Below, piece by piece: positions 11,390 through 30,605 of a stretch of 64,000 bases of DNA. Position numbers and translations under genes: made by a program. Source of the stretch: Thiohalorhabdus sp. Cl-TMA (lineage in GTDB: Bacteria; Pseudomonadota; Gammaproteobacteria; Thiohalorhabdales; Thiohalorhabdaceae); assembly GCF_041821045.1 (NCBI RefSeq), contig NZ_JBGUAW010000001.1, positions 62,001-126,000 of the forward strand. The letters run 5' to 3'. The number at the start of each line of letters is the position of its first letter. Position 1 is the stretch's first letter. A model generated the notes under the pieces. It did no database searches and had not been told where the DNA came from. It saw nothing but the letters and a program-made list of their open reading frames with translations.

Positions 11390-12766
11390 GTGAAAATCGT
11401 CATCCTCGGTGCCGGGCAGGTGGGCTCGCCGGTGGCCGAGCAGCTCGCCCTGGAAGGACACGATGTCACGGTGGTGGACCAGGACGGGGAACGGCTCTCC
11501 GCGCTGGGGGAGCGCCTGGACATCCAGACCGTGGCGGGCCAGGCCGCCTATCCCCACATCCTGGAAGAGGCGGGCATGGGCGCCGCGGACATGGTGCTGG
11601 CGGTGACCGCCACCGACGAGGTGAACATGGTGGCCTGCCAGATGGCCGAGACCCTGTTCCATACCCCCACCAAGCTGGCCCGTCTGCGCGCCCCCGAATA
11701 CCTCTCCCACCCCGAGCTGTTCAACCGGGAGGCCTTCCCGGTGGACTTCATAATCAGTCCCGAGCAGGTGGTAACCGACTCCATTCACCGCCTCATCGAG
11801 CACCCCGGCTCACTGCAGGTGGTGGATTTCGCCGGCGGGCGGGTCCGTCTGGTGGGCGTGCGGGCCGACGCCGACGGCCCCCTGGTGGGCCACCAGCTCC
11901 AGGAGCTGCGTCACCGCATGCCGGGCGTGGACACCCGGGTGGCCGCCATCTATCGCCGCGGTCAGGCCCTGATCCCGGAGGGGCAGACGGTCATCGAGGA
12001 AGGCGATGAAGTCTTCTTCATCGCCGCCCGGGAATACATCCAGTCCGTGCTGCGCACCCTGCGGGCCGTGGAAGGCACGGTGCGCGGCGTGGTCATCGTC
12101 GGCGGCGGCAAGATCGGCAGCTCCCTGGCCAAGGCCCTGGAGCGCACCCCCGTGCAGGTCAAGCTCATCGACCACAATGCGAGCCACGCGGCCAAGGTGG
12201 CGGCGGGGCTCAAGAACACCCTGGTCCTCCACGGGGACGGCGCCGACGAGGAGCTCCTGCGGGAGGAGAACATCGGTGACATGAACGTCTTCGTCGCCGT
12301 CACCAACGACGACGAGGCGAACATCCTCTCCTCCATGCTCGCCAAGCGCATGGGCGTGCAGCGGGCGGTGACCCTGATCAACCGCGGGGCCTATGTGGAT
12401 CTGGTGCAGCAGACCGGCATCGACGTGGCGGTCTCGCCCCACCAGGCGACCATCGGCCGCATCCTGGCCCACGTGCGCCGCGGCGACGTGGCCATGGTGC
12501 ACAGCCTCCGCCGGGGGGCCGCCGAGGCCCTGGAGGTTCTGGCCCACGGCGACGCCTCCACCTCCCGGGTGATCGGCAAGCGCCTCGACGAGATCCGGCT
12601 CCCCAAGGGCGTCACCATCGGGGCCATCGTGCGTGGCGATCAGGTGCTCATCGCCCACCGCCACGTGGTCATCGAGCCCGAGGACCACGTGATCCTGTTC
12701 CTGGTGGACAAGCGCAAGATTGTCCAGGTGGAGAAGCTCTTCCAGGTCGGACTGGGGTTCTTCTAG
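11390..12766 (+). CDS. trkA: Trk potassium uptake regulatory subunit TrkA
   Basis: 458 aa, the standard TrkA length, from a GTG at 11390 (VKIVILGAGQVG); longer in-frame starts upstream would add unconserved sequence. It contains two RCK units, each with a Rossmann NAD-binding domain (GAGQVGSPVAEQLA near residue 6 and GGGKIGSSLAKALE near 240) and a TrkA_C domain. It sits on the cytoplasmic face of the TrkH channel and gates K+ uptake with NAD(H)/ATP. Its stop shares one base with the start of trkH. Confidence 0.97.
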   Translation: MKIVILGAGQVGSPVAEQLALEGHDVTVVDQDGERLSALGERLDIQTVAGQAAYPHILEEAGMGAADMVLAVTATDEVNMVACQMAETLFHTPTKLARLRAPEYLSHPELFNREAFPVDFIISPEQVVTDSIHRLIEHPGSLQVVDFAGGRVRLVGVRADADGPLVGHQLQELRHRMPGVDTRVAAIYRRGQALIPEGQTVIEEGDEVFFIAAREYIQSVLRTLRAVEGTVRGVVIVGGGKIGSSLAKALERTPVQVKLIDHNASHAAKVAAGLKNTLVLHGDGADEELLREENIGDMNVFVAVTNDDEANILSSMLAKRMGVQRAVTLINRGAYVDLVQQTGIDVAVSPHQATIGRILAHVRRGDVAMVHSLRRGAAEALEVLAHGDASTSRVIGKRLDEIRLPKGVTIGAIVRGDQVLIAHRHVVIEPEDHVILFLVDKRKIVQVEKLFQVGLGFF

Positions 12767-14223
12767 TGCACTGGCGGGCGATCGGCTACCTCTCGGGCCT
12801 CCTGCTCATGGTGTTCAGCACCGCCATGCTGCCGCCGCTGGCCATCGCCTGGTTCTACGCGGACGGCGCCCTGGTCGCCTTCGTGGACTCCTACCTGCTT
12901 ACCCTGGGCACCGGGTTCGTGCTCTGGATCCTGCTGCGCGGGGCCCCGCGCGATCTCAACCACCGGGACGGCTTCCTGCTGGTGACCCTGTTCTGGGTGG
13001 TGCTGGCCCTGTTCGGAGCGCTTCCCCTGCTGCTCTCGGGGACGGCGCCCTCCTTCACTGCCGCCTTTTTCGAGTCCATGTCCGGGCTGACCACCACCGG
13101 CTCCACCGTGCTCTCCGGACTGTCGGATCTGCCGCACGGCATCCGCTTCTGGCGCCAGGAGATGCAGTGGCTGGGCGGCATGGGCATCATCATTCTGGCC
13201 CTGGCTATCCTGCCCATCCTCCAGGTGGGCGGCATGCAGCTGTACAAGGCCGAGGTCCCCGGCCCCGTAAAGGACCAGAAGCTCACCCCCCGGGTGAACG
13301 AGACGGCCAAGGCCCTGTGGCTGATCTACATCGGTCTGACCGGGGTCGCGATCGTGGCCCTGTGGCTGGCGGGCATGGGGCCCTTTGATGCCGTAAGCCA
13401 TGCGTTCACTTCAGTGGCCACCGGCGGATTCTCCCCCTACGACGCCAGCGTGGGCCATTTCTCCAGCCCGCTGATCCACTATCTGCTCATCGGCTTCATG
13501 TTCCTCGGCGGGGCCAACTTCGCGCTGCACTTCGCCTTCCTGCACGGGGGCGGCCTGCGGGGCTACCTGGGGGACCCGGAGTTCCGGGTCTATCTGGTTC
13601 TGCACGTGGTGGCCGCGCTGCTGGTCACGGCCTTCCTCATGGCCTACCAGACCTACCCCGGCCTGGAGGAGAGCTTCCGCAAGGCGCTGTTCCAGACAGT
13701 GTCCATCGGTACCACCACCGGCTTCGCCACCGCCGACTACGAGGCCTGGCCGTCTCTGCTGCCCTTTTTCATCCTGCTCCTAGGCTTCTTCATGGGCAGC
13801 GCGGGGAGCACCACCGGCGGCATCAAGGTGATGCGCTTCGTGCTCCTCTGGAAGCAGGGCCTGCGGCAGGCCTACCTCCTCATCCACCCGCGCGCTATCG
13901 CGCCCCTGAAGCTGCGCGACCGGCCCGTCCCGGAGGGTGTCATCCAGGCGGTGTGGGGCTTCTTCGCCGTCTACGTGACCACCTTCATTCTGCTCACCCT
14001 GGTGATGATGGCCCTGGAAGGCGGCGATTTCGAGACGGCGGTGGGGGCGGTGGGCGCCACCCTCACCTGCGTCGGTCCGGGCCTGGGCGACGTGGGGCCG
14101 GCGGACAGCTTCGCCAGCATCTCCATCGCCGGCAAGTGGGTACTGTCCCTGGCCATGCTCATGGGCCGTCTGGAGCTGTTCACCTTTTTCGTTCTTCTGA
14201 TGCCCGCTTTTTGGCGGAAGTAG
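12766..14223 (+). CDS. trkH: Trk potassium channel subunit TrkH
   Basis: 485-aa inner-membrane K+ translocating subunit starting at a GTG that shares one base with the trkA stop. The four selectivity-filter loops of the MPM repeats are recognisable: SMSGLTTTGSTV, TSVATGGFSPYD, VSIGTTTGFATADY and LTCVGPGLGDVG. A total of about ten hydrophobic segments fits TrkH. Its last 44 bases overlap the 3' end of the convergent BCCT gene. Potassium uptake fits the osmotic theme of the next genes. Confidence 0.97.
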   Translation: MHWRAIGYLSGLLLMVFSTAMLPPLAIAWFYADGALVAFVDSYLLTLGTGFVLWILLRGAPRDLNHRDGFLLVTLFWVVLALFGALPLLLSGTAPSFTAAFFESMSGLTTTGSTVLSGLSDLPHGIRFWRQEMQWLGGMGIIILALAILPILQVGGMQLYKAEVPGPVKDQKLTPRVNETAKALWLIYIGLTGVAIVALWLAGMGPFDAVSHAFTSVATGGFSPYDASVGHFSSPLIHYLLIGFMFLGGANFALHFAFLHGGGLRGYLGDPEFRVYLVLHVVAALLVTAFLMAYQTYPGLEESFRKALFQTVSIGTTTGFATADYEAWPSLLPFFILLLGFFMGSAGSTTGGIKVMRFVLLWKQGLRQAYLLIHPRAIAPLKLRDRPVPEGVIQAVWGFFAVYVTTFILLTLVMMALEGGDFETAVGAVGATLTCVGPGLGDVGPADSFASISIAGKWVLSLAMLMGRLELFTFFVLLMPAFWRK

Positions 14224-19846: not shown

Positions 19847-21112
19847 ATGAATGTCGGCCCTTTGCCGGGTCTAAAGGGAGCGCTCTTTTTCGGGCTGCTC
19901 AGCTTTTCCTGGGCAGCACAAGCGGCCACGCAGGGCGGAAATACGCAGGCCCTTGCCGAGCCGCTGGCCTGGAAAGAGGATGCCTCCCGCGATACCGCCT
20001 TTTTCTCCATTGCAAGTCTCGGCCATGAAAAAGGATTCCGCTTTGACGGGGCCTCCACCGTCCATGCGCATACCTTCATGTTCCCGGCGCCCCGGGATAC
20101 GGAAGTAGGTAGCGTCCGGTTCCGGCTTGTTTACCGGTCCTCGGTACTGCTCAACCATTTGGCCAATCTCCGGGTTGAGGTGGAAGGCCAACCGGTGGAG
20201 AGCCGGTCCCTGGAGCGGGATGGGGGACTGCATTCTCTTGTGGTGCCCGTGGACCGGAGGGCCTTGGACGATGGCCGAGTGGAGGTAACCGTCCAGGCGG
20301 CCATTCCGGTAAGCGAGGATCGCTGCCTGGATGAGCGTCTGGCCGCCAGCTTTTTCCACATGCTTCCGGAAAGCGGGCTGGCGCTGCGCCATATCCGCCG
20401 CCCGGGCTCTCTGCGTGATGCCTGGAAGCTATTACCTTCCCGAGTAACCGTTAGTCTCCCCCCGAAGGAGGCGATGTCGCCGGAAATTTTCACCGCCGCG
20501 TGGGCGACCCTGGACCTGCTCCATCGGCGGGGGCGCAAAGTGCGCATCGCCCGACTTCCGGCACTGGGAGATATAGTCCTCGGCGACCGGAGCTTCCTGG
20601 CAAAAGCGCTGGCAAAGCGTTATCCCGAAACGGTGGAAAATCCTCGGGAGCGTGCCGAGCAAGCACTGCCTTCCCGGGAAAGGAACCTGTTCCTGGTCCA
20701 GGATGCGCAGGCGAAGGCTGGTTTCATCGCCGTCAGCGCGCCCTACGAGACCCGGCCTCTCTATCTCTTGGCGAAAAAGTGGCAGCCACTGGCCGCCGGC
20801 GACCGGTACAACCTCCGGCCTTTGGACTACCCGGCGAGCCATGCCGCCAGGCCGGTGGGTGATGCCAGGGGCGGGTCCTACTCCCTGCCGCTGGAGGAAC
20901 TGGGATTTGACACCAGCTCCCGGTTCATTGGCTCCCGGGCCGGGTGGGAAGCCGTCGTCACTCCTGGCGACCTTCCGCCCCGAACCCGGCCTGATCGGCT
21001 CAGCTTCAAGGTCATCGTCCCGGTTGGTGTGGGCGAGCAGGGCTATGAGGCGTACGTCTACCTCAACGACGTCCTCCTTCGGGCCAAGCGGCTTCGGGAT
21101 TCCGGGCGATAG
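19847..21112 (+). CDS. BcsB-like periplasmic polysaccharide synthase subunit, N-terminal part (ends at in-frame amber)
   Basis: 421 aa with a signal peptide (ALFFGLLSFSWAAQA). The body is beta-rich with BcsB-like features: FRFDGASTVHAHTFMFPAP, an early jelly-roll strand series (VRFRLVYRSSVLLNHLANLRV) and a cysteine-bearing segment, SEDRCLDERLAASFFHML, followed by a flavodoxin-like part. BcsB holds the nascent glucan in the periplasm and docks on BcsA; here the partner is the GT2 encoded 0.85 kb downstream. Translation stops at a TAG (21110-21112), but the same frame continues with clearly related sequence, so this is about 60 percent of a 708-codon gene. Confidence 0.78.
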   Translation: MNVGPLPGLKGALFFGLLSFSWAAQAATQGGNTQALAEPLAWKEDASRDTAFFSIASLGHEKGFRFDGASTVHAHTFMFPAPRDTEVGSVRFRLVYRSSVLLNHLANLRVEVEGQPVESRSLERDGGLHSLVVPVDRRALDDGRVEVTVQAAIPVSEDRCLDERLAASFFHMLPESGLALRHIRRPGSLRDAWKLLPSRVTVSLPPKEAMSPEIFTAAWATLDLLHRRGRKVRIARLPALGDIVLGDRSFLAKALAKRYPETVENPRERAEQALPSRERNLFLVQDAQAKAGFIAVSAPYETRPLYLLAKKWQPLAAGDRYNLRPLDYPASHAARPVGDARGGSYSLPLEELGFDTSSRFIGSRAGWEAVVTPGDLPPRTRPDRLSFKVIVPVGVGEQGYEAYVYLNDVLLRAKRLRDSGR

Positions 21113-21124
21113 CAGGAAATCACG

Positions 21125-21973
21125 GTGTCCCTTCCGCCGGAGTATCAGGCTCAGGTCAACGAATTGCGGGTAGTGATCCAGCGGGAGGGTACGGAGGGGG
21201 CATGCCTCGGGGCCGCGAAGGCCTTTCCCATCCAGGTTGCGCCGGACAGTCACCTAGTCGTGCGGAAGGACGATTCCCTTCCCGTGCAGTTCGGCGACCT
21301 GCCCCGCTATCTTTCCGGCGGTTTCGAAGTGCTCCTCGCTGAAGAGCTCCTGGATTCGGAGGACGGCTTGCTCCTGTTGGCCCGGTTATCCGCCGATTTG
21401 TCCCTGCCAGTGGATTTCCGGCGGGTGCGCTTCCTCGAGGAAAGCCAGCCCTTGCGGCCACGGGGACCCTTCCTGGCGCTCGGCCGGTTCGAGGCCGGTG
21501 GGCTCCAAGTCCCGGTGCGATTCGACAAGGGCTCTATACGGGTGGTGGACGACCACGGCAGTACCTTGCTGGACGCGAAGACCCTTCCTCGGTTGACGGT
21601 GGCCCAGCTGGCTCGAACGCAGCAAGGCGCGCGTGGCCTCTGGGTGCGCACGGCCAGCGGGGAGCGGCTGCCGCCTCCGGATGACTTCAAGCTGTCGGAA
21701 GACGATGTGGCCTTCGCGGACCGCTCCGGAGTCCTGCTGACCCTGGATAGCGGGGCTCCTTCCCAAGCCCGGGTCCATTACCCTGGGGTGACCAGCTGGC
21801 TGGGCCACCTCGGGGCCAACCGTTTCTGGATTCTTGCGCTGGGGTGGCTCGGGCTTACGCTCCTGGTTCTCTATCTTTACCGCAAGATCCGGCAGCACGA
21901 TCCGGATAGGAAGCGAGGGGACGGGACTGGCTTCACGAGTGACCCGGGAGCCCCGGGAAATGGCCATGGATGA
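21125..21973 (+). CDS. BcsB-like subunit, C-terminal part downstream of the amber codon
   Basis: This is in the same frame as 19847-21112 and separated only by TAG plus four codons; a GTG at 21125 could serve as restart. It continues the beta-sandwich region (SLPPEYQAQVNELRVVIQREG) and ends with a membrane anchor (FWILALGWLGLTLLVLYLY) and basic tail, exactly where BcsB has its C-terminal helix that packs on BcsA. Without readthrough or a restart the periplasmic part would lose its anchor. Whether it is a pseudogene, a split gene or a sequencing error cannot be decided here. Its end overlaps the GT2 start. Confidence 0.7.
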   Translation: MSLPPEYQAQVNELRVVIQREGTEGACLGAAKAFPIQVAPDSHLVVRKDDSLPVQFGDLPRYLSGGFEVLLAEELLDSEDGLLLLARLSADLSLPVDFRRVRFLEESQPLRPRGPFLALGRFEAGGLQVPVRFDKGSIRVVDDHGSTLLDAKTLPRLTVAQLARTQQGARGLWVRTASGERLPPPDDFKLSEDDVAFADRSGVLLTLDSGAPSQARVHYPGVTSWLGHLGANRFWILALGWLGLTLLVLYLYRKIRQHDPDRKRGDGTGFTSDPGAPGNGHG

Positions 21974-24020
21974 AGCCTTCGAGGCCAAGGCCGGCGCCCC
22001 GGCCGTTCCCTCTGGCCCCGAACCGGACGGGCCCATCGGTACGCACCTTGTCCGGGAAGGGTGGATTAGCCCGGAACAGCTAGAGAAAGCCGTTGCCATC
22101 CAACAGCGGCGCGGGGGTCGCCTCGGGGATATCCTGGTCGCGGAGGGATGGATCGATCGTTTCGTGGGCAGTGGGCAGATGGGAGATCGCCTGATTGAGC
22201 GTGGTCTCCTGACCCCCCAGCAGCTTGAGGCGGCCTTGGCCCTCCAGCGGCGCTGGGGAACGCGCCTGGGAGATGTTCTGCTTGCCCAAGGCTGGGTGCG
22301 TCCCTACGCCTTTTATTCGGTGCTGGCCGAACATTTCGGCCGTCCGTTCGTGGACTTCGACCAGTCCCCTCCGGACCCCTCCCTATGGCGCGAGGAGGAC
22401 CTTACGACTTACACGGAGCTCCTAGTGCTCCCGTGGGGGCGCTCCAAGGGCGGCATCCTGACCTTTGCCGTGGCGGACCCGGATCCCGAAGCCCTGCAAT
22501 GGGTGCGGGAGCGCGCCGGGGAGCCGGTGGATTTCGTGATCACCTCTAAATTCGACATTATCTGGCAGGTGCAGCGTCATTCCGAGGACTACCTCAGCGA
22601 CTACGCGGTCAATGAGCTCTTCAACCGGGATCCGGTGCATTCGGCCCGCCGAGTTTTCACTAAGGCCCAGATCGCGGGGATCTATACCACGGCTTCCCTG
22701 GCGTTGGTTTCGTTAGCGGTTTGGCCCATAACCACGCTACTGGTCTTCAATGCCGGTTTGGCTTTCTTCCTACTCATCAACTTCGGCTTGCGGGTGCTCT
22801 TTACGTGGGTGGGTAGCGAAGCCGAGATCGACATCAAGGTCACCGGCGAGGAGGTGGCGGCTCTCGCCAATGCCGATCTTCCCACCTACACCGTGCTCGT
22901 CCCCATGTACAACGAACCGGAGGTGCTGCCGCTCATCGTCGATGCATTGCGCAAGATGGATTACCCCCTCTCCAAGCTGGACGTAAAGCTGGTCCTGGAG
23001 GAGGGCGATGAGGTGACCATCAGCGCGGCCAAGGAAATGGGGCTGGAAGGGATTTTTGAGATCATCCGGGTGCCGCCATCCCTTCCCAAGACCAAGCCCA
23101 AGGCCTGCAACTACGCCCTGGCCTTTGCGCGGGGAGACCTGGTGACCATTTACGATGCCGAGGACCAGCCCGAGCCGGATCAGATGAAACGGGCCGTACT
23201 GGCCTTCCGAAAATCCCGGCCAGGGACGGCGGTGATCCAGGCGCGCCTGAACTATTTCAACAGGGAGCAGAACTGGCTGACCCGGCTATTCACCCTCGAA
23301 TACTCCCTATGGTTTGATTTTTACCTGCCGGCCTTGGAAGCTCTGCACATTCCCATACCCCTGGGGGGTACCTCGAACCATTTCGATATGCATATCCTGC
23401 GCAGTGTGCAGGCGTGGGACCCCTACAACGTCACCGAGGACGCCGACCTCGGAGTGCGCTTTACCCAGCTGGACTACCATGTGGGCGTGGTGAACTCCAC
23501 CACCTACGAGGAAGCCAACAGCCGCCTCGGCAACTGGATCCGCCAGCGCTCGCGCTGGATCAAGGGCTATATGCAGACCTACCTGGTACACATGCGGCGT
23601 CCGCTGCACCTGTATCGGACTCTGGGCCACACGGGCTTCTGGGGGTTCCAATTCTTCATAGGCGGCTCGGTCCTCAATGCCCTACTCGCGCCCGTGCTCT
23701 ACCTGATGTTCGCTTGGTGGCTGATCACGCATGGCAGGGCACTGGATCCCCTGTTCCCGGCGCATATCCTTAATATTAGTTTGTTCAATCTGCTCATCGG
23801 TAACGGGTTCCTGATCTACCTGTCCATGGTCAGCGTGTTCAAGCGCCACCTCTATCGGCTCATTCCCTACGCCCTGACCGCCCCCGCCTATTGGCTGCTC
23901 CAGTCGGTGGCTGCTTATAAGGCCCTCTGGCAGCTTATTCACAAGCCATTCTTCTGGGAGAAGACCGCCCACGGACTTACCGGTGCATCGGGGGAGATGG
24001 GCAAGGAAGGGAAGGCATGA
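21960..24020 (+). CDS. Cellulose-synthase-like GT2 glycosyltransferase with N-terminal MshEN repeats
   Basis: 686 aa from the ATG at 21960 (ATG 21966 is also possible). Residues 20-120 hold two tandem MshEN-type units (IGTHLVREGWISPEQLEKAV with RLGDILVAEG; MGDRLIERGLLTPQQLEAAL with RLGDVLLAQG), the family that binds c-di-GMP. Membrane helices near 240-285 precede the GT2 domain with VLVPMYNEP (about 315), DAED (about 398), TED (about 491) and QRSRW (about 530), i.e. the D, DxD, TED and QxxRW set of processive synthases. C-terminal helices (560-665) would form the translocation channel. This resembles NfrB-type enzymes, but with the MshEN part at the other end. The sugar is unknown. Confidence 0.9.
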   Translation: MAMDEAFEAKAGAPAVPSGPEPDGPIGTHLVREGWISPEQLEKAVAIQQRRGGRLGDILVAEGWIDRFVGSGQMGDRLIERGLLTPQQLEAALALQRRWGTRLGDVLLAQGWVRPYAFYSVLAEHFGRPFVDFDQSPPDPSLWREEDLTTYTELLVLPWGRSKGGILTFAVADPDPEALQWVRERAGEPVDFVITSKFDIIWQVQRHSEDYLSDYAVNELFNRDPVHSARRVFTKAQIAGIYTTASLALVSLAVWPITTLLVFNAGLAFFLLINFGLRVLFTWVGSEAEIDIKVTGEEVAALANADLPTYTVLVPMYNEPEVLPLIVDALRKMDYPLSKLDVKLVLEEGDEVTISAAKEMGLEGIFEIIRVPPSLPKTKPKACNYALAFARGDLVTIYDAEDQPEPDQMKRAVLAFRKSRPGTAVIQARLNYFNREQNWLTRLFTLEYSLWFDFYLPALEALHIPIPLGGTSNHFDMHILRSVQAWDPYNVTEDADLGVRFTQLDYHVGVVNSTTYEEANSRLGNWIRQRSRWIKGYMQTYLVHMRRPLHLYRTLGHTGFWGFQFFIGGSVLNALLAPVLYLMFAWWLITHGRALDPLFPAHILNISLFNLLIGNGFLIYLSMVSVFKRHLYRLIPYALTAPAYWLLQSVAAYKALWQLIHKPFFWEKTAHGLTGASGEMGKEGKA

Positions 24021-25501
24021 CCCAGCCCACGCGGCTGGGCTTCAACCTTTTGTTTTTCGGAATCGCCGCGGTGGCGCTGGGTGGTCTGGCCTGGTTTCTC
24101 CAGCAGAATCATTTCGTCAACGACATGGCCTTGCGCCGGTGGGCGACGCTGCTCGAGGTGCTCGACAGCCCGCGTATCCGCCCTGAGTACCTGGGGCTCC
24201 TCTATCCCCACGGGACTTTTTTGGCCTTGGCGCCCTTCCACTACCTGGGGCCTCTGGATTCCGCAATGGCACCCACCCTGGTTTCGGTCCTGTTCGGTGC
24301 GGGGCTTTTGGCCTTGTGGAGTCATCACCTGCAGAGAGCGGGACAGCCGCCCGTCTTCCGCATACTCCTGGTGGGGCTGGTGGTTCTGCACCCCGCCTTC
24401 CTGTGGGGAGCCACCAGCGGTTCCATGGGAGCCATCAGCCTGGGCTGCTTCTACCTGCTCTATACAGCGGCCTTGCGCTTGATAATTCGGGATGACATCC
24501 ATTCATTCATCGTTTTCGGGGTGCTCCTGGCGGCCTTCTTCTTCGTAGAGGGGGCGTCCCTCTACCTTTCTTTGGCCCTGGTACCCCTTTTGCCTCTGTT
24601 GGCACCCCGCCACATATTGATGAGCGCCCCGTTGAGCACCTTCGTCATCCTCGCCACGCCCCTACTGGTGGTGGCGTTCGGCTGGTTCTACTACAACTGG
24701 CTGTTCTTCGGTACGCCCTTGGCCTTTCTTCAGGAGGCCCACACCCAGCTCCAGGGGAGTGCCGTGGAGGCGCTGCCGTGGCTACGGATTTATGGGGACC
24801 AATGTCTGTTGCCGGGACTGTGGACATTGGGCCTTACCTTGGCGGCCTTTCCCGCTATGGTCCTGTTGCTGGGCGGTCTTCGGCAGGATTCACAGCGGCT
24901 GGTTACCGCTCTGGTGCTGCTTTTCCATCCCGTGGTGGCCGTTTGTCTGGCCACCGAGGACCGGTTCCTGCGCCACCCCTTGGAGCTGGTGGCCTTGGTG
25001 CTTGCCGGCATCATGGCGGAGCTGGCCTACCTGGGGCCGCGTCCGGCCAGGGCGCGCCAAGGGGTCGTCGCCCTGCTGGCCCTGGGCCTGTTCGGGGGTT
25101 GGGCCGGATTTCTCCTCTACCCCACTCCGACCATGGAGGCGTGGCGGGGGGCTTTCCTGAAACCGGTTACAGCCCCGGACCATGCCGGGGAGATCGCCCT
25201 GGGCCGTTGGCTGGGCCGGCATCGAGGCCCGACCCTGCTGGACGATGCGAGCGGGTACCGGGCCATCGCCGCGCGGGGGGACGCTCGGGGTCTTATCGTC
25301 CCTTTCGAAGACCGCTTCCAGATTGAGCTCCGGCTGCGGCAGCCCACGGTCGAGCAGGTGGCGCTTCCTGATCCGGATTCCATGGTCGGACTCGGGGACG
25401 CCCTCAACCGCCGTTGGCCGGATTTCTACCAAAATGGGAAACCGGGGTATCGCTTAGTTTACGATTACGGCGGCTGGCGCGTCTGGAAGCGGGATGCGTA
25501 A
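24017..25501 (+). CDS. Polytopic membrane protein of the polysaccharide operon
   Basis: 494 aa with about ten to eleven hydrophobic helices (NLLFFGIAAVALGGLAWFL, LLVGLVVLHPAFLWG, FIVFGVLLAAFFFVEGASLYL, LATPLLVVAFGWFYYNWLFFG and more) and a soluble C-terminal domain from about residue 370. An early acidic/aromatic loop (LDSPRIRPEYLGLLYPHG) and the helix pattern recall lipid-linked-sugar glycosyltransferases of the GT-C fold, but I see no diagnostic motif. It overlaps the GT2 gene (ATGA) and the hydrolase gene by 8 bp, so it is part of the same unit. The function is unassigned. Confidence 0.8.
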   Translation: MTQPTRLGFNLLFFGIAAVALGGLAWFLQQNHFVNDMALRRWATLLEVLDSPRIRPEYLGLLYPHGTFLALAPFHYLGPLDSAMAPTLVSVLFGAGLLALWSHHLQRAGQPPVFRILLVGLVVLHPAFLWGATSGSMGAISLGCFYLLYTAALRLIIRDDIHSFIVFGVLLAAFFFVEGASLYLSLALVPLLPLLAPRHILMSAPLSTFVILATPLLVVAFGWFYYNWLFFGTPLAFLQEAHTQLQGSAVEALPWLRIYGDQCLLPGLWTLGLTLAAFPAMVLLLGGLRQDSQRLVTALVLLFHPVVAVCLATEDRFLRHPLELVALVLAGIMAELAYLGPRPARARQGVVALLALGLFGGWAGFLLYPTPTMEAWRGAFLKPVTAPDHAGEIALGRWLGRHRGPTLLDDASGYRAIAARGDARGLIVPFEDRFQIELRLRQPTVEQVALPDPDSMVGLGDALNRRWPDFYQNGKPGYRLVYDYGGWRVWKRDA

Positions 25502-26564
25502 AACCCCGATCCTGATCGGTGGGCTTGTGGTCGCGGGAATGGCCGCATTGACGGGCCTCTGGCTGAGCGGATTCAGCGGCCAGCGGTTCGAGGCCAATGA
25601 GCCCGCTTGGGGGTTCAACCTGCTTCAAAGCCGGGAATCCTCTTTTGCGGAGGAGCCGGCGAGGGCTGCATTGCGGCGGCTCGCGGAGCTCGGTGCCGAC
25701 CATGTGGCAGTGGTCACCTTCCTGGAGCAGGCCGCTCCGGACGCAGCGGAACCAAGCCGTGGCGGACAGGTCACCGACGAGCAGCTCGTCGCCGCCTTGC
25801 GGGCCGCCCATGCGGCCGGCCTGGAAACCCTGGTCAAGCCGCAGCTTCTGGTGCCTGGGTCCTGGGCCGGTGAGATCGATCCGCCATCCCGGAAAAGGTG
25901 GTTCGGGGCCTATGGGGACCATCTCCTGCGCTATGCCCGCATCGCGGAACGGGAGGGCGCGGAGGCCCTGGTCATCGGCACCGAGCTGACCAAGCTGGGC
26001 GGGGCGGAAGAATGGAAAGGGGTGATCGCGGCAGTTCGCCGGGAGTACAGCGGCAAGCTGACGTATGCGGCCCACAACGCCGAAGGCGTGGAAGCCTTCG
26101 CCCATTGGGAGTGGCTAGATGCCGTTGGCATGACCCTCTATCCATCCCTGGGCCAAACCGCCCGGCCACCGGCAGTGCGCGCACACATGACGAAAGCCCT
26201 CGACCGGGTGGAGGCGGCGGTGACCGGCCTGGACCTTCCCGTCTGGGTCCTGGAGATCGGCCATCCCTCGGCAACCGGCTCCCTGCCCCGGCCCTGGGAT
26301 TGGCGTCGACTCGCTGGCCCAGGCGTGGAGCCCAACCCCGGTCTCCAGGCCATGGTGCTTCAGGAGTGGATCGGGGTCTTACGCGAGCGGCCCACCCTGG
26401 CAGATAACCGGGTTGCCCGGGCAACCTTCTGGAGCTGGTATGGGACCCTAGAGGCCGGTGGTTACGGGGATACAGGTTTCACAGTGCAGAACAAGCCCGC
26501 CCAGGTGGTCCTGCAATGCCATTGGCGCGGTTGCTGCCGGGAAGGCACGGGCGCCGAACAATGA
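25494..26564 (+). CDS. Membrane-anchored GH113-like TIM-barrel glycoside hydrolase
   Basis: 356 aa with an N-terminal signal anchor (ILIGGLVVAGMAALTGLWL). The barrel starts AWGFNLLQSRESSF, and E164 in IGTELTKLGG and E254 in WVLEIGHPSA sit at the ends of strands 4 and 7, as in GH113 (beta-mannanase type, clan GH-A) where they act as acid/base and nucleophile. TLYPSL and TFWSWYGT are further barrel-rim motifs. Many polysaccharide synthase operons include a periplasmic hydrolase that trims polymer; that role is inferred here. It overlaps the neighbouring genes at both ends. Confidence 0.8.
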   Translation: MRKTPILIGGLVVAGMAALTGLWLSGFSGQRFEANEPAWGFNLLQSRESSFAEEPARAALRRLAELGADHVAVVTFLEQAAPDAAEPSRGGQVTDEQLVAALRAAHAAGLETLVKPQLLVPGSWAGEIDPPSRKRWFGAYGDHLLRYARIAEREGAEALVIGTELTKLGGAEEWKGVIAAVRREYSGKLTYAAHNAEGVEAFAHWEWLDAVGMTLYPSLGQTARPPAVRAHMTKALDRVEAAVTGLDLPVWVLEIGHPSATGSLPRPWDWRRLAGPGVEPNPGLQAMVLQEWIGVLRERPTLADNRVARATFWSWYGTLEAGGYGDTGFTVQNKPAQVVLQCHWRGCCREGTGAEQ

Positions 26565-27382
26565 GTCCCTACCGGTCGGGTCCCGGGTTGGCTGCGGTCC
26601 TCTTCCTGGTCGTCTCGCCGGCTTCCTTGGCCGGTGCCTGGATGCGTTCGGGCGGGGAATACAGCTATACAACGGGAATGGGGTATGTCACCCATTCCCG
26701 TTACTTCGACTCGAATAGCCGGCCCCGCCCCGCCCCCTGCACCACGCGGGATGCCTATTTCGACCAGTATTTGGAATACGGGTATTCCTACTACCACACC
26801 ATTTTCGCCGGCCTCCACACGACTCGGCGCTCCTGTGGTGGCGACCGCCGTCTGGACGGCGGTGACCTGGAGTTGGGGATACGAGGGCGCCTGAATCTCT
26901 TCCGTAATGGCCGCACATGGGAGGCTGCCCTCTTGCTGCCATCCGGCGAGGGCGCCAGCGGCCCTTCGCGACCCGGTGTCGAGCATTACGGCCTGGAGCT
27001 GGGGCTCCATGGGCGGTTCGCGGCGGGCGGCCCCTTCCATGCGCACCGGTATTTCTCCACCGGCGCGGAGGTCCGCCTCTGGGAGGGGGTGCCCTCGGAG
27101 CACTTCCTCACCTATATGGAATATTCCTGGCCCGCGGGCAGCTTGGACCTCCAGGCCGGGCTGCACGGGAATTTTTCCCTGCGCAACGGGGCGGACGGGA
27201 TCGGCTGGGGTAGTGAGTCCCCCGTGGATGATTACGATCGGATCCGGGTGCGGGCCTCCCTGGGGCAGCCGCTTGGCGGTGAATGGTCCGTGGATTACAA
27301 GGTCGTCCGGGTGGTCTGGGGGCGAAATATGGATGCAAGCACCGAGGTGGGCATAAGCTTCGGCCGGACATGGATGGAGTGA
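26561..27382 (+). CDS. Predicted outer-membrane beta-barrel protein
   Basis: 273 aa from an ATG that overlaps the hydrolase stop (ATGA). A signal peptide (GLAAVLFLVVSPASLAGA) is followed by alternating hydrophobic/polar strands rich in Tyr, Gly and Arg (GGEYSYTTGMGYVTHSRYF, YLEYGYSYYHTIFAGLHT, LELGLHGRF, FLTYMEYSWPAGSLDLQAGL) and a C-terminal strand ending GISFGRTWME. Two cysteines (in PAPCTTR and RRSCGGD) could form a disulfide. I read it as a 10-12 strand porin-like exit or structural component for the polymer. No named family is recognised. Confidence 0.72.
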   Translation: MSPYRSGPGLAAVLFLVVSPASLAGAWMRSGGEYSYTTGMGYVTHSRYFDSNSRPRPAPCTTRDAYFDQYLEYGYSYYHTIFAGLHTTRRSCGGDRRLDGGDLELGIRGRLNLFRNGRTWEAALLLPSGEGASGPSRPGVEHYGLELGLHGRFAAGGPFHAHRYFSTGAEVRLWEGVPSEHFLTYMEYSWPAGSLDLQAGLHGNFSLRNGADGIGWGSESPVDDYDRIRVRASLGQPLGGEWSVDYKVVRVVWGRNMDASTEVGISFGRTWME

Positions 27383-27390
27383 CAGAGGCA

Positions 27391-29256
27391 ATGGGCGGGA
27401 AGGCGTGGGCAGTGCTTCAGAGGATGGTCCTGGTGGGCTCCTTGATTGCCCTGGCTGCGGGGTGCGCACAGGGGCCGCAACCGGAACGGGAGGCGCTTTC
27501 CAAGGCCGATTTGCCCCGAGGGCATGAGCTGGTGCGTAACAATCCAGTACTGGAGCCCGGCGACCTGAAGGTGCTTGATCTGGAAATGGATCCTCTCGAT
27601 GCGCGCGTTTTATTCCGCAAGGAGCCATTCGACCGGTCCTCCTTTCCGGTCACTCTGCTGGTGGATGGTGCGCGTCACGAGGGCCGGGTGGAGGTGCTGG
27701 GCAGCTCTTCCCGACGCTTTGCCAAAAAGTCCATCCTGATCAAGCTCCGCGAGGGGGAGGCATGGCGGGGTCAGCGCCGCATTGCCCTGGACGCCATGGC
27801 AAACGATGGCTCCATGATGCGAGAGCGCCTGGCCTGGGACACCATCGAAGCCCTGGGCATGGCGGCACCCCGGGTGCGCTACCGCCGTTTGCACATTAAC
27901 GGTGAGCTGATCGGGGTTTTCCTCCAGACCGAATGGATCCGGCCTGCCCTTTTCGCCCGCTTTGGCCTCGGTACCGAGGGGGTGCTGTTCAGCCCGGATT
28001 CCAGCGCGTTCTGCGGAGACCTCACCCCGATGGATGCCGGGAGGGCGGCGGAGTGCTGGAACGTGCTTTCCTCCGGTGGCGACGGGATCCGCCCCATCGT
28101 GAAGCTGGGTCGCCGCATAGATGCCACGCCCGTAGAGGAATTTGATACCTTCCTGGCCGAGCACTTCCATGTGGATTCGGTTATAGATTGGTTCCTGATC
28201 AATACCCTGACCAATAACGGTGATACCTACAACAAGAACTATTTCCTGTACCGCGCACCTGCCGATAGCCGCTGGACGGTGGTTCCCTTCGACTATGATC
28301 TCACCTTCGGCCACAACTTCGATCCCTATCTGGCCTACCCGCGCAATATCTTCAATGAGCACTTCGTCTACTACTATCCGCCCCAGTTGGGCGCCTACAG
28401 CCCGCTTAAGGAAAAGGTCCTACGCAACGATGCGCTGCGCGGCCGTTTCCTTACGCGGCTGCGCCATTTGATGGGGCTGAAGCCGGCCGGGTACGGGAAG
28501 GAAAGCTTCGGGCTGTGGCACCCGGAGGTGATGGGAGAGCGCATCGCGGCACTGCGCGAGGCGCTAAAGAGCTATGCCCGTCTTGATCGGTATCAGCCGC
28601 AGAGCCGGGTAGGCTTCCGGCGCGAAGTGGAAACGGTGGCCTACTATACCCGGGCGCGATGGCATTATCTGCGAGCCAAGATGTTCGGGCGCTTCCCCTG
28701 GAATGCCGACTCTGCCCATTGGGATCCCCAAGAGGCTCCCCCGCCGCCGCCCCTCCCGGAAACCCTTTACGCTGCCGATACCACCTGGCAAGCCGGGGAC
28801 GGGGATTCGCTGGCCATGGTGGCCCCAGGGTACGGTTACATCCTGGCTATGCTGGATGATATCCGACCAGGCGATACGGCCCGGCTGCGCTTTTCCGTCG
28901 AAGTGGACATGAACCAGCCTCCCGCGGTAGCGCCGCCGCTGATGGACCCGAGGCAGTGCGTCCAGCGCACCTGGTTCCTCATCCTCAAGACTCCCGCCGA
29001 CCATGTCCGGGCGGATCTGACTCTGGAATACCTGCAGGAGAATAGCAAGCGGAATGAGCTCGGGGAGTGGCTTGATGAGGGCTTCCTGGAGCTTTGGCTC
29101 TACGGCGGGCGGGGGTGGTGGCCCTTGAATGCTCGTACCAATCCGGAAGCCAATACGCTGCAAGCCTCCCGAGTGGTTCTGCCCAGCGGCAGGCTGTTGC
29201 GGTTCGTCGCCTGTAGCCCGGGAGTCGTGGAACGGGCGCAGAGGGACCCGGGTTGA
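27391..29256 (+). CDS. CotH-family kinase, predicted lipoprotein
   Basis: 621 aa from the ATG at 27391 (ATG 27370 is possible). A signal peptide ends in a lipobox LAAGC (C25), so the protein should be exported and lipidated. The body matches the CotH kinase fold: RVEVLGSSSRRFAKKSILIKL with the nucleotide-contacting basic residues, ALDAMANDGSMMRERLAWD, then NNGDTYNKNYFLYR (276-289) and PFDYDLTFG (299-307) containing the metal-binding and catalytic acids (D301, D303). Spore-coat CotH proteins phosphorylate proteins using ATP. A C-terminal beta-rich domain of about 140 residues is extra. The substrate is unknown; envelope proteins or the barrel next door are candidates. Confidence 0.85.
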   Translation: MGGKAWAVLQRMVLVGSLIALAAGCAQGPQPEREALSKADLPRGHELVRNNPVLEPGDLKVLDLEMDPLDARVLFRKEPFDRSSFPVTLLVDGARHEGRVEVLGSSSRRFAKKSILIKLREGEAWRGQRRIALDAMANDGSMMRERLAWDTIEALGMAAPRVRYRRLHINGELIGVFLQTEWIRPALFARFGLGTEGVLFSPDSSAFCGDLTPMDAGRAAECWNVLSSGGDGIRPIVKLGRRIDATPVEEFDTFLAEHFHVDSVIDWFLINTLTNNGDTYNKNYFLYRAPADSRWTVVPFDYDLTFGHNFDPYLAYPRNIFNEHFVYYYPPQLGAYSPLKEKVLRNDALRGRFLTRLRHLMGLKPAGYGKESFGLWHPEVMGERIAALREALKSYARLDRYQPQSRVGFRREVETVAYYTRARWHYLRAKMFGRFPWNADSAHWDPQEAPPPPPLPETLYAADTTWQAGDGDSLAMVAPGYGYILAMLDDIRPGDTARLRFSVEVDMNQPPAVAPPLMDPRQCVQRTWFLILKTPADHVRADLTLEYLQENSKRNELGEWLDEGFLELWLYGGRGWWPLNARTNPEANTLQASRVVLPSGRLLRFVACSPGVVERAQRDPG

Positions 29257-30605
29257 GCCGCAACTGGGTCACCTTAGCCTTTCAACGTCTCTTGGGCCTG
29301 GTCACCGAAATCCGCCCTGACGAGCTGCAGACTACCCTGCGGCTCGCGGCCCGGATTTTCCTGGTTATGGTGGCGTACTATCTACTCAAGCCGACACGGG
29401 AAGCGCTGATACTGGCCGACGGAAGCGCCGAGCTGCGCAGCTACGCGGTGGCTTTCCAGGCCGGGCTTATGTTCTTGGTGCTGCCACTATACAGCCACTT
29501 CTCTCGTCGCTACGCGGGCGAGGGAATCTTCGTGGGTGTGACCCTCTTTTTCATCTCCAATCTCGGGCTGTTCTATTTCCTGGGTACCGGGGGTGCGCGC
29601 CTGGGGCTGGTTTTCTTTATATGGCTGGGGATTTTCAACGTCACCCAGATCGCCCAGTTCTGGGCCCTGGCGGCGCATGTCCATACCGTTCAATCCGGGC
29701 AGCGGCTATTTGCCTTCATTGCCCTGGGGGGCTCGTTGGGGGCGGTGGTGGGCTCCCAGCTGGCGGAGTGGCTCTTCGAGGTCCTAGGACCGTTCCAGCT
29801 CATGCTGGTGGCCATGGGGGTGCTGTTCTCGGCCATTTTCGCCGGAGGAAAGCTTCCGGGCCGTGCAGAGGGAGACCGTGAGGGGCGCCCGACGGGTATC
29901 GGGGCGCTACTCGGCGGACTCGTCCCCGTACTGAGGAGCCCCTATCTGCGAAAAATCGCCCTGTTCGTGGTGCTTCTCAACTGCATCAACACCATCGGCG
30001 AGTTCATCCTAGCGGAAATGGTGGTGGGCCACGTGGAAGCGACCCTTTCCCCGGGGGAGTCCAAGGAGGCCCGGATCGGCGCTTTCTATGCGGATTTCTT
30101 CGCCTGGGTGAATCTCCTAACCCTGCTGTTTCAGCTTTTCCTGGTCTCGCGTCTGTACCGCACGATCGGGGTGCAGGGTGCGTTGTTGGTGCTTCCCCTC
30201 ATCGCCCTATCCGGGTACATGTTGATGGCCTTCTTCCCGGTTTTCGCCGTAGTACGAGTGATCAAGGTCCTTGAGAACAGTACCGACTATTCTATTCAAA
30301 CCACGACCCGCCATGTTCTTTTCCTCCCGGAGACCACGGACGGGAAATATGCTGGTAAGACCACCATTGAGACCCTGTTCTGGCGAATGGGGGACCTTTT
30401 GCAGGCGGGAGTAGTGTTCCTAGGAGTCTCCTACCTGGGATTCAAAACCTCGGACTTCGCCTTGTTCAACCTGGGGCTGGCCGTCCTTTGGCTGCTAGTG
30501 GCCTTTCGAATCGCCCGTTCCTACCAGGTGCTCGCCGGTCCGCTGAATGCTGATGGGCCGTATGCCGGGGTACGAAAGACGCCGGCAACCGCCGCCCGGA
30601 AATGA
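29253..30605 (+). CDS. NTP/NDP exchange transporter-family (ADP/ATP translocase-like) membrane protein
   Basis: 450 aa, about twelve membrane helices, starting at a TTG that overlaps the CotH stop. The segment LVMVAYYLLKPTREALILADG near residue 40 is the N-terminal hallmark of the TLC nucleotide carrier and related MFS proteins. Later helices (FNVTQIAQFWALAAHVHTV, LFAFIALGGSLGAVVGSQLA, VLENSTDYSIQTTTRHVLFL) also fit that family. The basic TTTRHVLFLPETTDGKYAGK loop may contact substrate phosphates. Its substrate is not proven: some family members carry other solutes. Last gene of the island operon. Confidence 0.8.
   Translation: MSRNWVTLAFQRLLGLVTEIRPDELQTTLRLAARIFLVMVAYYLLKPTREALILADGSAELRSYAVAFQAGLMFLVLPLYSHFSRRYAGEGIFVGVTLFFISNLGLFYFLGTGGARLGLVFFIWLGIFNVTQIAQFWALAAHVHTVQSGQRLFAFIALGGSLGAVVGSQLAEWLFEVLGPFQLMLVAMGVLFSAIFAGGKLPGRAEGDREGRPTGIGALLGGLVPVLRSPYLRKIALFVVLLNCINTIGEFILAEMVVGHVEATLSPGESKEARIGAFYADFFAWVNLLTLLFQLFLVSRLYRTIGVQGALLVLPLIALSGYMLMAFFPVFAVVRVIKVLENSTDYSIQTTTRHVLFLPETTDGKYAGKTTIETLFWRMGDLLQAGVVFLGVSYLGFKTSDFALFNLGLAVLWLLVAFRIARSYQVLAGPLNADGPYAGVRKTPATAARK

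Follow-up and report, generated by a model that had tools for sequence, protein, structure and literature searches.

Two adjacent genes of Thiohalorhabdus sp. Cl-TMA raise the question of how a kinase that acts outside the cytoplasm obtains its phosphate donor, a question which, to our knowledge, is unanswered for bacterial extracytoplasmic kinases. The genes lie in the window analysed here (64,000 nucleotides of contig NZ_JBGUAW010000001.1, assembly GCF_041821045.1) and encode an exported CotH-family kinase and a membrane protein related to the NTT/TLC ATP/ADP carriers. The first-pass annotation of this DNA took the pair as an undescribed functional unit in which the transporter delivers ATP to the periplasm. 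Few NTT carriers of free-living bacteria have been characterised (PMC5381601), and where a kinase and a carrier are conserved side by side in one operon, both the source of the donor and the role of such carriers become directly testable.

Organization of the locus

The kinase and carrier genes come last in a set of genes on the + strand (19847-30605 of the window), most of which overlap or nearly abut:

19847..21973, + strand: BcsB-like periplasmic subunit (Sfz1-like), just below the cut-off of BcsB PF03170 (20.3 bits, cut-off 21)
21834..24020, + strand: family 2 glycosyltransferase (GT2) with an N-terminal MshEN c-di-GMP-binding domain (XagB/Sfz2-like; Glyco_trans_2_3, MshEN)
24017..25501, + strand: multi-spanning membrane protein, function not assigned (Sfz3 position, XagC-like; by position and identity)
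25494..26564, + strand: GH113-like (endo-beta-mannanase family) protein with an N-terminal signal or anchor (Sfz4/XagD-like; PF22612, 118.4 bits, cut-off 27)
26561..27382, + strand: signal-peptide-bearing, putative outer-membrane protein (Sfz5 position; by conserved position)
27391..29256, + strand: exported CotH-family kinase (PF08757; predicted fold; invariant K112, D278, N283 and D301)
29253..30605, + strand: NTT/TLC-related multi-helix membrane transporter (PF03219; predicted fold; profile match in the PDB)

The whole set is operon-like and represents the Xag/Sfz type of exopolysaccharide locus, with the CotH and NTT genes at its end. Its GT2 is of the XagB/Sfz2 type with an MshE-type c-di-GMP domain, and the BcsB-like, membrane and GH-like genes stand in the fixed order, the BcsB-like gene of the window having an in-frame TAG. 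The same eight segments were found in the same order in L033, L034 and L037, which represent three families (f76, f37 and f44) of the window's class; the GT2 is 64-67% identical to the counterparts in these loci, and the membrane protein 37-41% identical to the proteins at the same position. The c-di-GMP motif NF053729 was detected in the GT2 with 115 bits (cut-off 38), and the true start of this protein is probably downstream of the first TTG. The membrane protein gene overlaps the GT2 stop with its start, and the ATG of the gene at 26561 overlaps the preceding stop as ATGA. A Pfam search assigned the product of the latter gene (26561..27382) to no family; its position is kept in L033, L034, L037 and Mariprofundus, and its location in the outer membrane is putative. 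The pair, read at first as a free-standing unit, is instead a module at the end of an exopolysaccharide locus; the system represents a known type of locus in variant form and not a new kind.

In the present assembly, the TAG at 21110-21112 divides the BcsB-like gene into two ORFs (19847-21112 and 21125-21973). The ORF is uninterrupted in the related loci L171, L033 and L091, and the intact homologue of L171 scores 75.5 bits with BcsB PF03170. A nonsense change, a sequencing error and a two-piece subunit are all compatible with the TAG.

The exported kinase

The CotH gene (27391-29256), which is the only one in the genome, encodes a protein of 621 amino acid residues that matches PF08757 with 143.2 bits against a curated cut-off of 23.8. 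Translation from 27391 gives the N-terminus MGGKAWAVLQRMVLVGSLIALAAGC. The lipobox noticed previously (LAAGC, C25) has the cysteine at the expected place, but with A at position -3 it is not fully canonical. A signal-peptide-like N-terminus is present in all 18 homologues sampled, most of which lack a lipobox, so that export, as claimed from the sequence of the window, is conserved and lipidation is not. A lipobox as a family trait was rejected for the same reason, the motif being particular to the window protein. Since the N-terminus is hydrophobic and signal-peptide-like in every homologue sampled, the predicted extracytoplasmic location is a trait of the family.

The kinase domain (about residues 58-439) is followed by a C-terminal beta-sandwich (about residues 455-610). 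The closest solved fold to the AF2 model of the protein (mean pLDDT 79) is Bacillus cereus CotH (5jd9; Z 32.4, rmsd 3.1, 349 residues), in agreement with a kinase fold. Fifteen homologues all keep K112, D278, N283 and D301, and in the alignment to 5jd9 these residues include the catalytic Lys and Asp and the metal Asp. D278 is by alignment and spacing the equivalent of D228 in Bacillus subtilis CotH, the D228Q form of which is inactive (PMC7821199), and D301 lies 23 residues further on. The essential active-site residues, on which the first reading could have failed, are thus intact in the window protein, and catalytic residues were present in all CotH proteins checked.

A carbohydrate-binding role of the C-terminal beta-sandwich is conceivable, but Pfam gave no family and the fold matches are weak and ZU5-like (Z 7.6). 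The domain is conserved in the CotH proteins of the locus, including two invariant cysteines (C523 and C608). The CotH proteins sampled from Mariprofundus are far longer (about 1500-2270 amino acid residues) and their metal motif reads PWDYN, not PWDYD; the CotH protein of L101 (15482-20257) has several SH3 domains according to Pfam.

A relative of ATP/ADP carriers

As annotated at first, the transporter gene starts with a TTG (29253-29255) that overlaps the TGA of the CotH gene (29254-29256) as TTGA. The resemblance of its product to NTP/NDP exchangers holds for Pfam, where PF03219 (TLC) is matched with 40.7 bits against a cut-off of 21, and for the predicted fold, whereas the NCBIfam model of NTP/NDP exchangers (TIGR00769) was matched with 40.4 bits, far below its cut-off of 387.2. 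The AF2 model (pLDDT 83) superimposes on ATP-bound AtNTT1 (9j3l) with Z 36.4 and rmsd 2.5 over 405 residues, and also on two further NTT structures, the range for all three being Z 34.2-36.4 and rmsd 2.5-2.9; the best other MFS chain among the matches listed has Z 30.2 and rmsd 3.8. Because the three NTT structures stand apart in both measures, an ordinary MFS carrier was rejected as the closest class. A search of the PDB with the single sequence gave no match, and a profile of 15 transporter sequences matched two ADP,ATP carriers only, over the full length. Profile and predicted fold both relate the product of 29253-30605 to the NTT/TLC ATP/ADP carriers.

K155, E245, E385 and K527 of AtNTT1 correspond to V, G, E and D in the window transporter. 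Its clade keeps the equivalent (E250) of E385, a residue that we take to be important in the AtNTT1 family, lacks the equivalents of the other three and has invariant charges of its own (K46, R49, E50, E250, D345 and D381). Mutants of AtNTT1 at K155 and K527 no longer bind ATP, ADP or both, and the E245K mutant no longer exchanges them (PMC3306366). The proposed ATP cargo is therefore not supported as it was stated, because the clade of the window is without these residues; the other parts of the proposed periplasmic ATP supply, namely an exported kinase with an intact site, a transporter with the predicted NTT fold and the co-distribution of the two genes, stand.

The transporter that follows CotH in L093 (P0001) belongs to a different NTT lineage and has K, D, D and K at the four positions, and the NTT piece of L096, from a Thiobacillus MAG, keeps the last two (D and K). 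Since both sit on long branches of the tree, it is unsure whether they are each other's relatives. The L093-like gene of L096 (6425-7887) is located upstream of the BcsB-like gene and has a broken frame with two overlapping ORFs.

The genome of the window has a second, distant NTT/MFS-like gene (G000:C4:61777-63042; L051 8741-10090, - strand), which adjoins genes for RimK-like ATP-grasp, AstE/AspA-like and aldo-keto reductase proteins. Its tree neighbours are from other gammaproteobacteria, and its neighbourhood provided no clue to the substrate.

Co-distribution of the kinase and carrier genes

A GT2 profile scan of 84,980 species genomes found Xag-type loci in Xanthomonas, Mariprofundus, Ferriphaselus, Pseudomonas, alphaproteobacteria and others. 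We scored 80 named loci with CotH profiles and with profiles of each of the two NTT types. Both genes were present in 14 loci. Another 64 had neither, and for 53 of them 8 kb or more of sequence is available downstream; no locus had NTT without CotH, and two had CotH without NTT. In both of these two the sequence breaks off within the CotH gene. L110, one of the two, agrees with G296:C11 in its coordinates and in gene length, and in G296:C11 an NTT gene comes directly after CotH.

Of the 274 genomes sampled from the class, 16 have a CotH gene, as do 29 of the 398 sampled from the phylum (43 different genomes in total). Where CotH occurs together with an Xag/Sfz locus or a fragment of one, NTT is directly beside it in 22 of 23 genomes; the exception (G066, L171) has NTT only elsewhere in the genome. 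As 17 of the 23 genomes are from one family (f198), they are not independent. The conserved adjacency expected by the first-pass annotation thus holds inside Xag/Sfz loci but not elsewhere, NTT being beside CotH in none of the 20 CotH genomes without such a locus, and a general pairing of CotH with NTT was rejected. An XagB-type GT2 is present in five of the 274 genomes of the class sample, with CotH in the locus in all five and NTT adjoining in four; NTT homologues of any kind occur in 58 of the 274. Two second locus copies in Zetaproteobacteria (L172 and L174) have CotH without NTT, and the other copy of each genome has NTT. A phage replication gene A (GPA)-type protein is encoded downstream of the copy in L172 (12074-13696).

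The adjacency is not due to chance, because five or more families of the genome sample show it in the same gene order. In the GT2 tree, the CotH-bearing loci mostly form one supported group, with Thiobacillus outside and Ferriphaselus, which has neither gene, inside; L102 and L111 are marked 'none' only because their contigs end early. Since most CotH-bearing loci are in one GT2 clade, the co-distribution reflects partly shared ancestry. The retention or loss of both genes together in distant bacteria suggests a built-in supply of nucleotide.

Possible role of the kinase-carrier pair

The results establish the gene content and order, the co-inheritance of the two genes, an intact active site in the kinase, signals for export and, as a prediction, the NTT fold. 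We propose that CotH and NTT together form a terminal module for modification in an Xag/Sfz-type exopolysaccharide locus that responds to c-di-GMP. The GT2/BcsB-like pair would make and export the polymer, the exported kinase would phosphorylate the polymer or an accompanying protein in the periplasm or envelope, and the carrier in the inner membrane would bring out the nucleotide donor, in the simplest case ATP exchanged for ADP or AMP. The activity of the kinase, the cargo as a nucleotide, its direction and the phosphorylated substrate are what we infer in this scheme. A terminal module with phosphorylation by CotH and nucleotide supply by NTT is in our view the best explanation, for which belief and doubt are evenly balanced. 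Nucleotide supply is the best reading because the adjacency is conserved and because two loci have a different NTT that keeps the residue pattern of true ATP/ADP carriers; the strongest hint of a nucleotide need is that two NTT lineages accompany the same kind of kinase locus. The supply of ATP in particular is the most likely reading, with a roughly even chance of being right. A full pathway of glycan phosphorylation in the envelope, in which an NTT-type exchanger exports ATP and a secreted CotH/Fam20-like kinase phosphorylates the exported polysaccharide, can be put forward tentatively. In L178, a gene for a ManC-type GDP-mannose pyrophosphorylase/mannose-6-phosphate isomerase (11629-13053) comes after NTT; as a speculation, this gene and the GH113-like gene would fit a mannose-containing polymer.

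The transporter may belong to the locus and carry a cargo other than ATP, such as a nucleotide sugar, a phosphorylated metabolite of another kind or a product of nucleotide breakdown, with the donor of CotH arriving in another way or being a different one. The absence of three of the four charged residues of AtNTT1 from the window clade, in favour of invariant charges of its own, would be explained in this way, and many gammaproteobacteria have distant relatives of the transporter in unrelated neighbourhoods, such as the RimK/AstE-AspA/aldo-keto set described above; NAD is the cargo of one characterised member of the NTT family that falls outside the main clade (PMC5381601). We nevertheless consider such a cargo rather unlikely, as the same slot in L093 holds an NTT with the charge pattern of ATP/ADP carriers and the presence of the carrier tracks that of the kinase gene. 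Distinctly unlikely is that CotH is a structural protein or an enzyme of another nucleotide-dependent transfer (for example, AMPylation) and not a phosphotransferase. Kinase-fold families include enzymes with other chemistries, and the great length of the Mariprofundus protein, its SH3 domains and the Asn replacing the second Asp of its metal motif (PWDYN) would suit such a role, but the proteins of the window and of other gammaproteobacteria keep the catalytic set, including D278 and D301.

Common regulation or common ancestry within the exopolysaccharide locus could also account for the adjacency, with kinase and carrier serving the locus independently. Most pairs are indeed in one GT2 clade, further genes adjoin the sfz cluster (PMC8250860), and the ManC-type gene comes after NTT in L178. 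This explanation appears improbable, given that NTT is in none of the 64 Xag-type loci without CotH, that Ferriphaselus lacks both genes and that L093 and L096 have a different NTT lineage.

If the pair does serve such a pathway of glycan phosphorylation in the envelope, free-living bacteria would have a use for NTT proteins, in a counterpart of the arrangement of kinase and ATP carrier in the Golgi, and iron oxidisers would perhaps have an iron-binding phosphopolymer. From the proposal, a specific and testable function also follows for Sfz6 and the protein encoded beside it in the candidate locus of twisted stalks.

Comparison with known systems

The window CotH has the kinase fold and the catalytic residues in common with the spore-coat CotH of Bacillus (5jd9/5jda), which acts in the coat and not in the periplasm; in contrast, the window protein is exported, belongs to an exopolysaccharide locus and has an extra C-terminal beta-sandwich. 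The NTT/TLC ATP/ADP carriers (AtNTT1 and Chlamydia Npt1) are the closest solved fold and the full-length profile match of the transporter, which differs from them in missing the equivalents of K155, E245 and K527. Unlike the setting of these carriers, the genome of the window is of free-living size, and the locus shows no sign of ATP import from a host. Fam20-type kinases of the Golgi get their ATP through a carrier of the secretory pathway, and the kinase-carrier pair would, if the proposed reading is right, work alike, with a lumenal or extracytoplasmic kinase of related fold and a nucleotide carrier of its own; the Golgi carrier is of another family than the window NTT, and no common origin of the two systems is claimed. 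In the part of the literature covered by our search, we found no paper that links CotH and an ATP/ADP carrier as a unit, nor one on the source of ATP for extracytoplasmic kinases.

The locus is known from iron oxidisers as xag-like stalk genes (PMC4643136). The Xanthomonas exopolysaccharide operon xagABCD (PMC3609779) and the stalk genes of Ferriphaselus share with the window a GT2 about 60% identical to its own and downstream membrane and GH-like genes, but have neither CotH nor NTT. That the pair is essential for twisted stalks was not supported, as the stalk-forming Ferriphaselus (L104) is without both genes (also PMC8250860).

For Zetaproteobacteria, Koeksoy et al. (2021, PMC8250860) described the cluster sfz1-sfz6, in which Sfz6 contains a CotH domain and which is adjoined by a gene for an ATP-ADP antiporter. 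In that report, Sfz6 was given no function, and CotH and the antiporter were not connected; the pairing, taken at first as undescribed, had therefore been reported as a neighbourhood, and the functional link is what is absent there. The order in the stalk-forming Zetaproteobacteria is that of the window, namely a BcsB-like protein, a GT2 with an EpsE/MshE-type N-terminus, a membrane protein, a glycosyl hydrolase, a protein without an assigned function, a CotH-domain protein and an ATP-ADP antiporter. The two loci differ in that the organism of the window is a gammaproteobacterium and that its CotH, of 621 amino acid residues, is by Pfam without the SH3 domains of Sfz6.
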